Shown one piece after another: positions 23,948 through 32,925 of a DNA stretch of 34,203 bases (within the stretch, counting starts at the first letter, position 1; every line of letters begins with the position of its first letter). The notes under the pieces are model-generated. The model had not been told where the DNA came from. It ran no database searches and saw only the letters and a program-made list of their open reading frames with translations. Position numbers and translations under genes: made by a program. This stretch comes from Leptolyngbyaceae cyanobacterium C42_A2020_001 (GTDB lineage Bacteria; Cyanobacteriota; Cyanobacteriia; Leptolyngbyales; Leptolyngbyaceae), in contig JACYLN010000091.1 of assembly GCA_015272515.1 (NCBI GenBank), forward strand, positions 1 through 34,203. Reading direction: 5' to 3'.

Positions 23948-24871
23948 CTATTTAATCGCTAATGGCGTGTTGTGAAATAGCCATTCCTGGCGCAAGCGCG
24001 CGATCGCCTTTTCCTTTTGCTTTGCCTCCACCTCAATCCACGGCGCGTAGCGGTAGGACTCTGGCATGAGTGTAATGTAGTCGCTGTGTTGAGGATCACG
24101 GAAAAACTGATTGCCATTAGAAATGTGAACCACTTGCCAGGCTGGAATATCCCAGGTAGAGCGAGCCGCAACCAGCATTTCGGCAACGCTGGGATGATTG
24201 TAACTATCTACTTTTTCATGAATCACATGGTGGTGAGCGTCAAACACCAGGGGCACATTGGCTGTTCGACAAAGTTCAACCAGTTCTGCTGTACTGTAGG
24301 TATACTCATCGTTTTCTAATGTCAGGCGTAAGCGAATTGCATCTGGCAAATCTCGAATCACTTGAATTAACTGGCGTGCCCGATCGCCCTTGCCCCCGTG
24401 GATGTTCATCAATGCCCAGGGAGATCGCGGCAGCCCCAGCATATCCATCATTCGGGCATGGGCACCCAGAATCTTACAGCTATTTTGCACCACATCTGGA
24501 CGATCTGAACTGAGCACTACAAACTGATCCGGATGCAAAACTAAACGCACATTTGCTTCACGCGCAAAGTTACCAATTTGCTGCATTGTGTCGGCAAACT
24601 CAGGTAGCACTGCTTCTCCCACGGGCGCATCTGCAAAGGGCAACAAGGAGGAATTCATGCGGTAGAGTCGAATGTCATTCTCCTGACAAAATGCAATCGC
24701 CTGGTGCAATCGGTGCAGATTTTCTGTGTAGAGCGATCGCAGCAATTGTTCTTGCTCAGCGATCGCAAATTGCAGTAACCGTTTGCGAGTGATTGTCCGA
24801 AACCGCACGCGATCAGATGCGGTAATACAAACCAATCCAAATTCTGGCACCTGAGGTGGTGAAGCGTTCAT
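23948..24871 (-). CDS. uvsE: UV damage endonuclease UvsE (UVDE)
   Basis: A TIM-barrel endonuclease that nicks DNA just 5' of UV photoproducts and starts alternative excision repair. The 307-residue protein shows family blocks FGLVCITASDRVRFRTITRK, YRMNSSLLPF, LHPDQFVVLSSD, NIHGGKGDR, LTLENDEYTY and PLVFDAHHHVIH, which supply the His, Asp and Glu ligands of the metal cluster. I chose the ATG at 24871; a TTG five codons upstream is the alternative, and neither has a clear ribosome site. It lies in a run of minus-strand genes after malQ, with 71 bases between them, and a photoproduct-lyase-like gene is 2.4 kb away. Confidence 0.93.
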   Translation of the reverse strand: MNASPPQVPEFGLVCITASDRVRFRTITRKRLLQFAIAEQEQLLRSLYTENLHRLHQAIAFCQENDIRLYRMNSSLLPFADAPVGEAVLPEFADTMQQIGNFAREANVRLVLHPDQFVVLSSDRPDVVQNSCKILGAHARMMDMLGLPRSPWALMNIHGGKGDRARQLIQVIRDLPDAIRLRLTLENDEYTYSTAELVELCRTANVPLVFDAHHHVIHEKVDSYNHPSVAEMLVAARSTWDIPAWQVVHISNGNQFFRDPQHSDYITLMPESYRYAPWIEVEAKQKEKAIARLRQEWLFHNTPLAIK

Positions 24872-24896
24872 ATTCGTTATGAGCAATACAAATTCA

Positions 24897-27293: not shown

Positions 27294-28385
27294 TTGACTG
27301 CGATCGCGACTGAAACTCCTATTTCTACAACCGAGTTTTCTGCAACTTCTTCTCGGTTGTGGATGCCTGAACAAGTTTTGTTTACTCCCGCTGCCCTGGA
27401 TGAAGAATGGGGTCAGCAGATTCTCTCACGAGTTCAATCTCTGAACTTGCCCGTTGAAAAACTACCTCGCAATCGTTTGACAGGCTTGCGGGGTGAGACG
27501 GAACGCGAGACTTATGACATTTCTAAGCGAACACTTGCCGTTGTCACCGCTCCACCCAGCCAATTCAAGCTCAGTCCCATTCCACCCTCGGCAGATTGGC
27601 AGTTTCATCTGGCAGAAGGTTGTCCTGCCCATTGCCAATATTGCTATTTAGCAGGTAGTTTACAAGGCCCACCTGTGATCCGGGTTTATGCAAACTTACC
27701 CCAGATTTTAGCGAATTTAGGTGCTTATGAGGTGCCTGAACGGGCAACCTCATTTGAGGTGAGTTGTTATACTGACCCGTTGGGGATTGAGCATCTGACG
27801 GGCGGACTGGCGGAGTGCATCCGCTATTTTGGTACTCGCGAAAATGGGTACTTACGGTGGGTATCTAAATTTGATGCGGTGGAGACATTGTTAGATTTGC
27901 CTCATAATGGTCGTACCCGTTGCCGCATCAGCGTGAATGCTGCTCCTATTTCAAACCGATTTGAGGGGGGTACCGCTTCCGTTACAGCCCGATTGCAAGC
28001 ATTACGACGACTGGCACTGCCGAAAACCCGTGGTGGCGGCGGTTATCCGATTGGTTTAGTGATTGCACCGATTATGCCGATGGATGATTGGCAAGTGCAT
28101 TATGGTCAATTGCTGGATGCGATCGCAACGGCTTTAGACTTTGATTGCGACTTGACGGTTGAGTTAATTTCTCATCGCTTTACGCCTGGTTCTAAGGACG
28201 TGTTAACGACTTGGTATCCTCATAGCAAGCTGGATATGGATGAGGATAAGCGCAGTGTCAAGCGGAACAAGTTTGGTGGTGTGAAGTATGTGTATGATGC
28301 CGTCACTATGAAGACTCTACGCCAATTTTTTGAGCGTGAGATCGGTCAGCGCTTGCCGAATGCCCAAATTCTTTATTGGACGTAG
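27294..28385 (+). CDS. Spore photoproduct lyase (SPL) family radical SAM protein
   Basis: A 363-residue radical SAM enzyme. The cluster motif is CPAHCQYCYL, with Cys110, Cys114 and Cys117 in the CX3CX2C spacing of SPL. Cys158 in FEVSCYTDPLGIEHL aligns by position and context with the hydrogen-donating Cys141 of the Bacillus enzyme, and Tyr116 and Tyr118 with its Tyr97 and Tyr99. The C-terminal LDMDEDKRSVKRNKFG, then KYVYD and QILYWT also follow SPL. The spore enzyme reverses the thymine dimer specific to spore DNA; cyanobacteria make no such spores, so the substrate here is open. The start is TTG, supported by GGAG seven bases before it; an ATG at 27363 is the alternative. Confidence 0.87.
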   Translation: MTAIATETPISTTEFSATSSRLWMPEQVLFTPAALDEEWGQQILSRVQSLNLPVEKLPRNRLTGLRGETERETYDISKRTLAVVTAPPSQFKLSPIPPSADWQFHLAEGCPAHCQYCYLAGSLQGPPVIRVYANLPQILANLGAYEVPERATSFEVSCYTDPLGIEHLTGGLAECIRYFGTRENGYLRWVSKFDAVETLLDLPHNGRTRCRISVNAAPISNRFEGGTASVTARLQALRRLALPKTRGGGGYPIGLVIAPIMPMDDWQVHYGQLLDAIATALDFDCDLTVELISHRFTPGSKDVLTTWYPHSKLDMDEDKRSVKRNKFGGVKYVYDAVTMKTLRQFFEREIGQRLPNAQILYWT

Positions 28386-29805: not shown

Positions 29806-32800
29806 TTACCTCGCTGCCAGCGCTCCAGCACCAGCCGCAGCACCAGCCGAGATCAAAGCAGTAAGGAACAACCACCAAGCAGCCGTAGCAGCCGCTTTGC
29901 GAGTTTCTTCCATTTGACGCTGAGCTTGCAATTTGACTTCTTCTACTCGGCGTTGAGCTTCCATTTGAATCCGTTCTGCCCGCTGCAACACGCTGTTTCG
30001 TGCTGCCTCAATTTGATCAATGATGCGATTGGCATCTTCCTCAGAAATATCTCTGCGAGAGCTGAGAATGGCAACCAGTGTACCCCGATCAAATTGGCTC
30101 AATCGACCCCGCAGCGCATCAAATCCGGCTTGAGGATCATCGAACAAGGTGCGAACGTCACGCTTGATGCTGTCGTAGTTCAGTTCTGGACGATCCAAAC
30201 TATTCAGATAATCGCGAATTTGAGCAAACAAGCGATCAACCAGTCCTTGCAGTTGAGCTTGAATCTGTTTCAACTGGCTCAGAATTTGATCTCGTACCGA
30301 CTCAATTTGTGACACGACCTGATCCGCTTCTTCCGGAGTCATGTCTTTCCGTTGAGACAGTAAGGCAATCAACGTAGATCGATCAAAGCGAGATAGGCGA
30401 TCGCCCAGGCTTTGCACACCTTGTTTAGGTGATTGAATCAAGAGGCTGAGATCTCGCTTAATCCCTTCAGGATTGAGTTCATCCTTGTCGGTGTTCCGCA
30501 GGTAATCTTCAACGCTGGCTTCAAAGTCCATCACAGATTGTTGGGTTCGCAATGCCAGGCGACGGGGTGAACGGATAATGCGACGAATTGCTTCCTGCAC
30601 CTGATCGATAGAACGATTCACTTGTTCCTCGGTTACACCTTCTCGCTGGCTCAACAACTTCACCAACGTTTCGCGATCTACCCTAGAGAGCCGTCGTCGC
30701 AGGGCGATCGCGCCCTCTTTGGGATCATTCAGCAGAGTCAACAAGTCTTGCTGCAACCCTTCAGGATTGAGTTCTTCCAGGTTAGTAGACCGCAGATAAT
30801 CTGCAATCTTGGTTGTGGTCTGGTCATACTGTTCTTTCACGGCATCCGTGACGATGCGAGGTGAATGCACAAATGTATACCAGTTGGACTCAACCTGGCT
30901 CACAATTTGATTTGCTTCCGCCTCACTAATGTCTCCCCGCTGGCGTAACAGTTGCACTGCCGTATCCCGATCAAAATGAGAGGCACGATTGCGGAGTGCC
31001 TGGAGTCCCAGTTGGGGATCGTTGAGCAGGAGTTGAAAATCGCGCTTAATGCCGTCTGGATTGAGTTCTGCTTTGCCCGTATCCCGTAGATAAGACTCTA
31101 GTTTTTGTTGAAATTCAATCGCTTTTTGCTTGGCTTGCTCATCCAGTGAACGAGCATCAAACAATACGCGATCGCGAGTTGTTTCCAACGCATTCAGAAT
31201 ACTTTCGGTTTCCTCCGGAGTGATGTCCGTTCTTCTCGCTAAAATACCTTGTAAGGTGTGGCGATCATAGGATGAAAGCCGAGTATTCAGCGTATCAAAT
31301 TCGGCTTCTTCATCCTCTAATAACGCTTTGAATGCGGGCAACGTATCATTTGAAAAAAGCTGTTCTTTAGGAGTCAGCGTCAGGTAAATATCCACCCGCT
31401 GCTTCAGGTCAGCCGTAATCTCCACATCTTTTGCTGTCAAAGCACCCTGTAATACATCGCGACGAATTGCCTCTAGCTGATCGGCCACCTGCTGAATTTT
31501 CGCCTCAGTCAGCACTCCCCGAGATGAGAGCAAATCGACAAACAACCCACGGTTCAATTGAGAAAGTTGTTGTGCGATCGAGCCTGGATCGGCACTCGGA
31601 TCATACAGCACTTCGCGAAACTCGCGTTCGATAGTTGTGGGGTTCATCTGCCAGGAAGGTTTGTTGAGCAGGTAGTTCTCAACATCGTTCCGAATCGGGC
31701 TATAAGCAGGTGCGGTTGAATCGCCCTTAAGCTGCCCTACAACCTTGTTCGTTTGGTCAGCCACTTTATCCGGTGCTGATTTGAGTCGATCTAGAATCTT
31801 TTCAATATCCAGATCAGAAATATCCGTTCGTCCAGCAATCAATCCTACTAAAGTGTTAAACCCAGTTTGCAGCGTTTGCTGAATACCTCCAGGGGCTTTT
31901 TCACTGGCGGCACTGCTCTGCTGCGATCGCTCTGCCAACAGGCGATCAATTTTTGCATTCAGCTCTTGAAGCTGAAGCTGTCCTGGTTGGGTAGATTGCA
32001 GGTAACTGGTCAACTCAGCCAGAGAATCACGCCGAGTTCGCTGCCCTAGAGTCTGTTGCCAAATACCCTCCAACATGGCGGCAATTCGGTTCACTTCCTC
32101 TTTAGAAAAATCAGTTCGCTTACTGACTAGATCCACAAAGGTTTGGCGATCAATATGGCTTAAGCGATCGCTCTCCGCCAAAGCAGCAACCTCTGGATCA
32201 TTCAACAACGCCTCAAAATCTCCCCGAATGCGGCTTAAATCCAATTTTGGCAACTGAATTTTTTGTACGTACTCTTCAACTGACTCACGAATACTTTGTG
32301 GGTCAATCGCCGAGCCTAACTCGGTACGCACGGCTGACGCAACCGCCTCTGCGGTCGAAACAATTTGTTGCTTTGCAGCTCTACCTCCAATAGCAGCAGT
32401 CGCAGCCCCCAAAATGCTTTGAAAGCCAGTAGTAGCTGCATTCATGACAGAGCCGATTAAAGAACCGACCGTGCTGGAACTAACCCATACCAGCAGCGAG
32501 AAATAGGCAGCCCAAACGACTAAACCAATAATTGCACCCAAACCCTCATCGGTTAACAAGCTTAATTTTACTGCTAAATAGCAAGCAAAAAATAAAGCAA
32601 GCGTTACGCTAAGGAGTGTCCAAAGACCTAAACCAAAACCAATTTTACGAATGGTTGATCCAACACTTTCCGATTCGGAGTCTGAAGAGTCTGAATCGGA
32701 AGATCGCCCTAGATAAGAGATGCCAGCAGCAACAGAAAAGTTGGTCAACAGAAGTTGCATCGCGAATGCCAACAGAATTCCTGAAACCAGTGCAATAAAA

Positions 32801-32925
32801 AATTGAGGTCCAGTAAAAAATACTGAGGCAGCTTCCGGGGTATTTGTTTCCGTCGTAACGGGAACCTGTCCTACCCAAAATTGAATAGTCAATAATTGCA
32901 TCGGTAGTAGCGCAGTTTGAATCAT
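29806..32925 (-). CDS. Large membrane protein with eight ~98-residue repeats
   Basis: A 1039-residue protein I cannot assign to a characterised family. Order: three transmembrane segments (about 40-66, 96-121, 128-158), with an acidic Ser/Asp/Glu loop after the first (SSDSDSSDSESES, about 75-87); a repeat array; a charged coiled-coil (about 980-1010); and a C-terminal transmembrane segment (about 1017-1037). Repeat cores begin near 216, 415, 511, 609, 707, 805 and 903, so the period is 96-98 residues, and a degenerate copy fits between the first two. Each core reads roughly YLRxTxxxELNPEGIKRDL, then LLNDP, LSxFDRxTLVxLLSQRxDIS, and EEANxIVxQIE. All are predicted helical and probably cytoplasmic. 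The ATG at 32925 is chosen for GGGAG seven bases upstream; a GTG at 32985 is less likely. Similar cyanobacterial proteins are, as I recall, annotated as hypothetical or as transporters without basis. Confidence 0.85.
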   Translation of the reverse strand: MIQTALLPMQLLTIQFWVGQVPVTTETNTPEAASVFFTGPQFFIALVSGILLAFAMQLLLTNFSVAAGISYLGRSSDSDSSDSESESVGSTIRKIGFGLGLWTLLSVTLALFFACYLAVKLSLLTDEGLGAIIGLVVWAAYFSLLVWVSSSTVGSLIGSVMNAATTGFQSILGAATAAIGGRAAKQQIVSTAEAVASAVRTELGSAIDPQSIRESVEEYVQKIQLPKLDLSRIRGDFEALLNDPEVAALAESDRLSHIDRQTFVDLVSKRTDFSKEEVNRIAAMLEGIWQQTLGQRTRRDSLAELTSYLQSTQPGQLQLQELNAKIDRLLAERSQQSSAASEKAPGGIQQTLQTGFNTLVGLIAGRTDISDLDIEKILDRLKSAPDKVADQTNKVVGQLKGDSTAPAYSPIRNDVENYLLNKPSWQMNPTTIEREFREVLYDPSADPGSIAQQLSQLNRGLFVDLLSSRGVLTEAKIQQVADQLEAIRRDVLQGALTAKDVEITADLKQRVDIYLTLTPKEQLFSNDTLPAFKALLEDEEAEFDTLNTRLSSYDRHTLQGILARRTDITPEETESILNALETTRDRVLFDARSLDEQAKQKAIEFQQKLESYLRDTGKAELNPDGIKRDFQLLLNDPQLGLQALRNRASHFDRDTAVQLLRQRGDISEAEANQIVSQVESNWYTFVHSPRIVTDAVKEQYDQTTTKIADYLRSTNLEELNPEGLQQDLLTLLNDPKEGAIALRRRLSRVDRETLVKLLSQREGVTEEQVNRSIDQVQEAIRRIIRSPRRLALRTQQSVMDFEASVEDYLRNTDKDELNPEGIKRDLSLLIQSPKQGVQSLGDRLSRFDRSTLIALLSQRKDMTPEEADQVVSQIESVRDQILSQLKQIQAQLQGLVDRLFAQIRDYLNSLDRPELNYDSIKRDVRTLFDDPQAGFDALRGRLSQFDRGTLVAILSSRRDISEEDANRIIDQIEAARNSVLQRAERIQMEAQRRVEEVKLQAQRQMEETRKAAATAAWWLFLTALISAGAAAGAGALAAR

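Follow-up and report, generated by a model that had tools for sequence, protein, structure and literature searches.

The window analyzed here is the whole stretch of 34,203 nt from Leptolyngbyaceae cyanobacterium C42_A2020_001 (assembly GCA_015272515.1, contig JACYLN010000091.1, positions 1 to 34,203), which carries at 29806..32925 on the (−) strand a gene for a 1,039-residue protein (hereafter, the array protein) with eight repeats of about 98 residues held between membrane segments. The open reading frame (ORF) runs from an ATG at 32925 to a stop codon at 29806-29808, and the start site is the same or nearly the same in several orthologues; the gene coordinates given by an earlier reading of the letters alone (the sequence-only reading) proved correct, the strand being (−). 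Hydropathy analysis revealed three hydrophobic regions near the N terminus and one at the C terminus, confirming the membrane segments that this reading had described. Specifically, transmembrane segment 1 (TM1, residues about 40-62; 32740..32808) aligns with TM1 of the single-unit relatives described below, TM2 (residues about 96-119; 32569..32640) and TM3 (residues about 128-155; 32461..32544) are matched to the same relatives by hhalign, and the C-terminal TM (residues about 1015-1038; 29812..29883) is spanned together with repeat 8 by a profile of these relatives (residues 942-1037, 32.4 bits); all four are encoded on the (−) strand.

Self-comparison of residues 191-1000 yielded peaks at lags of 98, 196, 294, and 392, with 23% identity at lag 98 (9.3 standard deviations above the mean of lags 20-399). 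When each repeat was scored against a profile built without it (500 shuffles per repeat, 486-500 of which scored), all eight were recovered at 28-102 bits compared with shuffle maxima of 6.5-14.4 bits, which bears out the seven clear copies and one degenerate copy counted by the sequence-only reading. The repeats follow one another on the (−) strand as repeat 1 (residues 219-308; 32002..32271; 61.0 bits), which aligns to the single unit of the relatives; repeat 2 (residues 309-416; 31678..32001), degenerate, length-variable, and the weakest at 28.3 bits; repeat 3 (residues 417-513; 31387..31677; 50.5 bits), with 97 residues in 41/41 orthologues; repeat 4 (residues 514-611; 31093..31386; 55.1 bits), with 97 or 98 residues in 40/41; repeat 5 (residues 612-709; 30799..31092; 90.8 bits), with 98 residues in 40/41; repeat 6 (residues 710-807; 30505..30798; 83.4 bits) and repeat 7 (residues 808-905; 30211..30504; 96.7 bits), both with 98 residues in 41/41; and repeat 8 (residues 906-1003; 29917..30210; 101.9 bits), the best conserved, with 79-83% identity to four orthologues. 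As cut here, the repeats measure 90 (repeat 1), 108 (repeat 2), 97 (repeat 3), and 98 residues each (repeats 4-8), so that the near-exact 98-residue spacing first described holds for repeats 3-8. The motifs quoted at that time (ELNPEGIKRDL, LLNDP, FDRxTL, and SQRxDIS-EEA) are all present in the protein.

A scan of named genomes gave 536 relatives, the best 80 of which were kept; all 80 are titled cyanobacteria (e.g., Nostoc, Scytonema, Fischerella, Leptolyngbya, Oculatella, Trichocoleus, and Gloeocapsopsis). Protein searches found matches in 33 of 58 relatives and in 60 of 386 sampled genomes of the phylum, some of which cover the N-terminal domain only (e.g., G041, G194, G389, and G090), and several genomes hold two long array copies (e.g., G397, G240, and G379). 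Three alignments were built: A1 comprises 16 proteins selected to take in more distant members, A2 (the 41 orthologues) comprises 40 of the 80 kept relatives and the array protein, and A3 comprises 125 of 164 two-repeat fragments. In A2, 244 of the 246 copies of repeats 3-8 were 97 or 98 residues long, showing that the period is kept across orthologues, while repeat 2 ranged from 93 to 145 residues and is possibly a hinge. Repeat arrays often vary in copy number, and the most surprising point here is the strict length of repeats 3-8 despite much divergence. The repeats of the array protein scored best against their own position in all 40 other A2 proteins (320 of 320 comparisons, with repeat positions taken from A2 itself), and therefore the eight-repeat array was complete before these 41 orthologues diverged. 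Recent growth of the array by duplication at its C-terminal side, as the sequence-only reading had supposed, was rejected on these positional matches; its observation that the later repeats are more alike stood, and these repeats are also better conserved between species. Specifically, mutual likeness within the array protein is 37-43% among repeats 5-8 and 20-27% among repeats 1-4, with 54-83% and 38-53% conservation, respectively, against four orthologues; on these figures, recent duplication is not needed to account for how alike the later repeats are, since slower change can do so. One cyanobacterial array gene (L165, G115:C1:3715600-3721900) is split into two open frames (836 and 279 residues) and is apparently a decaying copy. 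Another, full-length array gene (L110) sits on a record whose title names a plasmid (Nostoc carneum NIES-2107 plasmid1).

The sequence-only reading had called the protein uncharacterised, as though an orphan, a description that no longer fits: its family is widespread and typically carries a single unit, or no unit at all. A tblastn search of a plasmid collection with the whole protein returned 21 records, all from Proteobacteria, 20 of which match only the N-terminal membrane part (annotated names include PhnA-like protein), while one Pseudomonas plasmid protein, annotated as YrzE family, matches within a repeat. This 320-residue protein consists of three TMs, one unit, and one C-terminal TM, and used as a query, it retrieved 229 plasmid records, including Spirosoma, Dyadobacter, and 54 Enterococcus. 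Such single-unit relatives (320-352 residues) occur in Proteobacteria, Bacteroidota, and Enterococcus under the names YrzE, TIGR04086, or CAP-Gly. Together with PhnA-like, these unrelated names cover one family that spans several phyla. In the set of eight plasmid-borne single-unit relatives, the repeat profile detected the unit in 8/8 (E 2e-12 to 7e-4); rescaled to 918 sequences, with seven rescored, six fell at 2e-10 to 1e-3 and Acinetobacter was the weakest at 0.08. In the reverse direction, a profile of the eight single-unit proteins matched 81 of 81 array proteins at E 4e-34 or better, compared with 6e-4 for the best non-array ORF or reversed copy (a low-complexity helical protein of the window), and when only the N-terminal 230 residues of the array proteins were searched, it still matched 81 of 81, at E 2e-16 to 3e-5, with 3e-4 for the best of the other ORFs. 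Alignment of 7 single-unit with 16 array proteins by hhalign gave 99.4% (E 9e-22) over TM1-TM3 and repeat 1, and single-unit proteins against the repeats gave 97.9%. On these sequence comparisons, homology of the array protein to the single-unit family appears nearly certain.

The single-unit proteins (e.g., WP_315962808.1, WP_236942830.1, WP_169553613.1, and WP_180547166.1) share with the array protein the order of three TMs, unit, long helix, and C-terminal TM, as well as a unit that lacks Cys and bears LRxTGxPxLxP-like and DRxxxxNxxxxRxxKSxxExxQIVD-like motifs, clearest in Pseudomonas, Ewingella, Spirosoma, and Dyadobacter. They differ in having one unit and 320-352 residues as against eight units and about 1040 residues; with eight units rather than one, the array protein is a variant rather than a plain member of the single-unit family. 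PhnA-like proteins of rhizobia and their relatives likewise have the N-terminal three-TM domain and the C-terminal TM and match the single-unit profile, but the repeat profile detects no unit in them (L143, L145-L147, and L181-L185). Six cyanobacterial open frames of 215-287 residues have the same membrane frame and, as a small set, reach 4.5e-22 to 5e-27 against the single-unit profile, and no unit was detected in these six by the repeat-profile search. These unit-less members (L156-L160 and L162) form a short cyanobacterial subgroup in which TM1 starts with a DR[VI][RHN]WG-type sequence. Divergent cyanobacterial paralogues, broken or partial genes among them, have 1 to 6 detected units, and 7-8 units were detected in 142 ORFs, as counted over all loci gathered, in which some genes occur twice, each time with a different locus number. 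One such divergent paralogue, of 542 residues (L167, G000:C115:36776-38263), with one clear repeat and the same membrane frame, occurs in the window's own genome. Since unit number across the family runs from none through one and several to eight, the unit is an insert between TM3 and TM4 (the C-terminal TM) whose number varies, and a single membrane frame that carries anything from no copy to eight offers a clean system for testing unit function. The array protein is thus a striking enlargement of an overlooked family. Phage records gave no relative of the whole protein, viral contigs no match to a two-repeat profile, and plasmids no match to a two-repeat fragment. In the literature, we found no functional description of family members under YrzE, TIGR04086, DUF3792, PhnA-like, or 98-residue-repeat names; one paper has a PhnA-like protein as a table row under signaling, without experiment, and another has a YrzE/TIGR04086/DUF3792 entry as a pseudogene in a table.

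We then considered on which side of the membrane the array lies. Cysteine is absent from all 33,478 residues of positions 190-1003 in the 41 orthologues, compared with 58 of 60 flanking ORFs of at least 600 residues that contain Cys, and the units of the eight single-unit relatives have none. By reading, basic residues directly precede TM1 in 7/8 single-unit relatives, and the C-terminal tail is clearly basic in 5/8; all six zero-unit frames have R or K on both flanks of the membrane part, immediately ahead of TM1 and behind the last TM. With four TMs and basic tails in the relatives, both tails should lie inside and the insert therefore outside. From this sequence evidence, it is quite probable that the array is outside the cytoplasm, and an extracytoplasmic array with both ends anchored in one membrane is likely. 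The bridge between thylakoid and plasma membrane that the sequence-only reading had raised does not agree with the relatives, whose basic tails would, by homology, imply a single membrane that the two ends enter from one side.

Searches of Pfam, NCBIfam, and PDB sequences matched no characterised repeat family; the one exception is half of the HU profile. The array protein scored 25.9 bits against PF00216 (HU; curated cut-off, 22.4), and all 16 aligned members match this model at E 0.01 (best, 6e-11), so that annotation would give the protein an HU DNA-binding label. It could be asked, then, whether the array is a cytoplasmic anchor linking DNA or the nucleoid to the membrane through an HU-like hairpin in each unit. 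We regard this as very unlikely: the match covers only positions 3-44 of 90 of the profile (residues 751-792, in repeat 6), i.e., the two-helix hairpin common to HU proteins and the unit, without the arm part; the copies are repeated and membrane anchored, unlike in HU; the two-repeat profile lists eight PDB sequences at E up to 10, none of them HU; and Cys exclusion and homology indicate the opposite side of the membrane. In HU proteins, the DNA-binding arm part lies in the second half of the profile, and a DNA-binding protein was set aside because that half is missing. As for the membrane part, the single-unit relative P0002 shows weak likeness to TIGR04086 (20.8 bits; cut-off, 30) and PF12670 DUF3792 (19.4 bits; cut-off, 31.3), which we take to be the B. 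subtilis YrzE type; these models have 115 positions and, unlike the family, no unit. The array protein had no TIGR04086 match in NCBIfam at E 1 and no DUF3792 match in Pfam at E 10, and a TIGR04086 search of the window's own genome gave three matches, all below cut-off.

Structural models suggest, at low confidence, that most repeats combine three short helices with a single helix of about 45 residues (AlphaFold; mean pLDDT 58 and 64, with blocks within residues 411-600 reaching 74-90), and that the long helix of repeat 8 runs into the C-terminal membrane segment as one helix (residues 962-1038). As confidence is low, domain packing is unreadable, and neither a loop nor a rod shape is predicted. 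Searching both low-confidence models against the PDB with Foldseek gave no match at E 0.001, VIA with the two-repeat model gave Z values of up to 5.6 to mixed helical proteins, and the best E values against PDB by sequence were 0.64 (whole protein) and 0.027 (two-repeat profile); coming from such models, the fold-search blanks do not show a new fold. The hydrophobic period of the long helices is 3.60-3.64 in repeats 4-8 and 3.36 in repeat 3, i.e., nearer the 3.64 of an 11/3 amphipathic helix than the heptad value of 3.5 in five of six repeats, although a 46-residue stretch separates the two periods poorly; the coiled coil suggested earlier is accordingly not upheld. Long amphipathic helices could also mean that the array spreads over the membrane face as a protector, in the manner of apolipoproteins, phasins, and LEA proteins, forming a large cover rather than a load-bearing rod. 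In keeping with this, the array is rich in L, R, D, Q, and E and free of Cys, weak Apolipoprotein matches occur in 8/16 members (best, 6e-7) with Phasin and ApoLp-III in one each, and a phasin-family gene lies near one relative. Set against these points are the PF01442 Apolipoprotein score of the array protein itself (19.6 bits), far under the curated cut-off of 90, the different period of repeat 3, the strict repeat length and positional identity, which exceed what a bulk amphipathic coat needs, and the short helices with conserved motifs that make up half of each unit. A surface-binding protector is therefore conceivable and, in our estimate, doubtful. With regard to spectrin-like repeats, whose fold is a three-helix bundle, the Pfam model SR_plectin_7 gave the array protein 10.1 bits, below its cut-off of 27.

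The relatives often lie near stress genes. In a first, unsystematic set of 13 plasmid regions, of which two unannotated ones (L144 and L176) were not counted, a stress neighbour was present in 6/11 regions (Indioceanicola, Paraburkholderia, Spirosoma, Serratia, Enterococcus, and Dyadobacter); these regions supplied the stress set of CsbD, YsnF/AvaK, YqjK, Gls24/AmaP/GlsB, and YtxH. Eight later regions (annotated records, one per genus, from a 60-row list) were picked before their neighbours were seen and compared with eight control stretches lying 30 kb away on these plasmids. DUF2382, presumably the domain of YsnF/AvaK, and DUF883, presumably of YqjD type, were added to the set on seeing these second regions, which moves the count from 5/8 to 6/8. 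Stress neighbours were thus found in 6/8 regions and 0/8 controls (Fisher p 0.007; strict list, 5/8, p 0.026). The six positive regions comprise CsbD in one, DUF883 with YqjK in one, and YsnF/AvaK or DUF2382 in four, one of which counts only through DUF2382; Mn-catalase and ferritin-like genes near one relative were not counted, and 2/8 regions had no stress neighbour. Over both sets, a stress neighbour accompanied 6/10 genes with a detected unit and 6/9 without, and these like rates place the stress link with the family rather than with the unit. In Enterococcus faecalis plasmid pUK045_2, a single-unit gene (L174, 2435-3493) adjoins genes for Gls24, AmaP, GlsB, and CsbD. Asp23 is a soluble protein held by AmaP, and stress scaffolds of the Asp23/AmaP type (Gls24 group) share with the array only the idea of a membrane-anchored scaffold; homology is not claimed. 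For N. punctiforme, PMC7660261 describes CsbD and AvaK-type genes as stress genes.

Taken together, these results lead us to read the array protein, at a probability of roughly 45%, as an eight-unit member of a widespread uncharacterised four-segment membrane family that acts as a stress-associated scaffold or brace of the envelope. Elsewhere this family carries one unit, or none detected, between TM3 and TM4, where the array protein has eight. The four segments would sit in one membrane, most simply the cytoplasmic one, with the N and C termini inside and the array outside, forming a loop closed at the membrane, where its two ends come together. Three short helices would make up each unit, and a long amphipathic helix would connect it to the next. 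The loop may serve as a scaffold or brace of fixed length at the membrane face, in which repeat 2 would be a flexible joint. Such a scaffold would support the envelope during osmotic stress, drying, and the like, a task that the relatives probably perform on a smaller scale. A scaffold or spacer, within the class of tether, spacer, or scaffold proposed from the sequence alone, is still the most natural function for a regular array between membrane anchors, and by analogy with the relatives, a stress-related structural role is our best guess for the array protein.

Several points weigh against this reading. In the cyanobacterial proteins, K+R is 3.07 in loop 1 and 1.02 in loop 2, which alone favours loop 1 inside; loop 1 is also richer in D+E, and the loop charges do not settle topology by themselves. 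An additional hydrophobic stretch at the N terminus of two aligned orthologues (L026 and L027) could invert the topology, the C-terminal tails are rather acidic in Spirosoma and Dyadobacter, Enterococcus lacks a basic N-terminal flank, and the absence of Cys in helical proteins may have other causes. Besides the low confidence of the models, the relatives outside cyanobacteria come from plasmids only, a biased sample, and 7/19 annotated plasmid regions have no stress neighbour. In A1, repeats 3-8 measure 97 or 98 residues in 93/96 cases, and 3/96 depart. Since Enterococcus has a thick wall and only one unit, a simple wall-thickness ruler is disfavoured. Finally, a tblastn search of the 80 named array loci and the window with 18 stress query proteins found none at E 0.01, while its positive control found 81; the stress role is therefore one carried over from the relatives. 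As for operon context in cyanobacteria, any one neighbour cluster occurred in at most 32 of the 81 loci, and short contigs are among these loci. A gene read from its sequence as universal-stress type lies 1.1-7.6 kb upstream of the array in 32 loci and one read as a transporter 1.1-7.2 kb upstream in 24, both mostly in Nostocales; one locus (L076) has a further transporter copy just downstream of the array gene.

The distribution of the array bears on another possibility, namely that it is a spacer or cell-contact element of multicellular cyanobacteria, e.g., at septa, with eight units setting a distance. HetR is a marker of filamentous species, and one draw of 146 genomes contained 25 with the array, 36 with HetR, and 21 with both, i.e., HetR in 21/25 array-positive and 15/121 array-negative genomes (G194 and G090, with the N-terminal domain only, excluded from the array-positive calls, and G108, with three repeats, included). 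This overlap fits a filamentous life style, as do the filamentous genera, recognized by their known habit, that make up most of the 80 kept carriers, and fixed repeat length would suit a spacer; the association is confounded, however, by shared ancestry and genome size. Moreover, 4/25 carriers lack HetR, Gloeocapsopsis (L100) carries the array and is not filamentous, and single-unit relatives occur in unicellular bacteria, and we consider a contact element unlikely. Returning to the envelope scaffold, its boldest form would be that a small stress-associated membrane protein became a giant eight-unit closed loop outside the cytoplasm, with a rigid six-unit stretch of fixed length and, near one end, a joint of free length, acting as an envelope brace or ruler that is older than the radiation of many mostly filamentous lineages and has kept its length since; in this full form, we hold the proposal to be rather improbable.

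Within the window, the array gene lies no more than 6 kb from a gene for UvdE, a UV endonuclease (23951-24886, (−) strand), and a spore-photoproduct-lyase-family gene (27294-28382, (+) strand), between which sit DoxX and DUF6658 genes; the neighbourhood of the array gene is possibly a UV-stress island.

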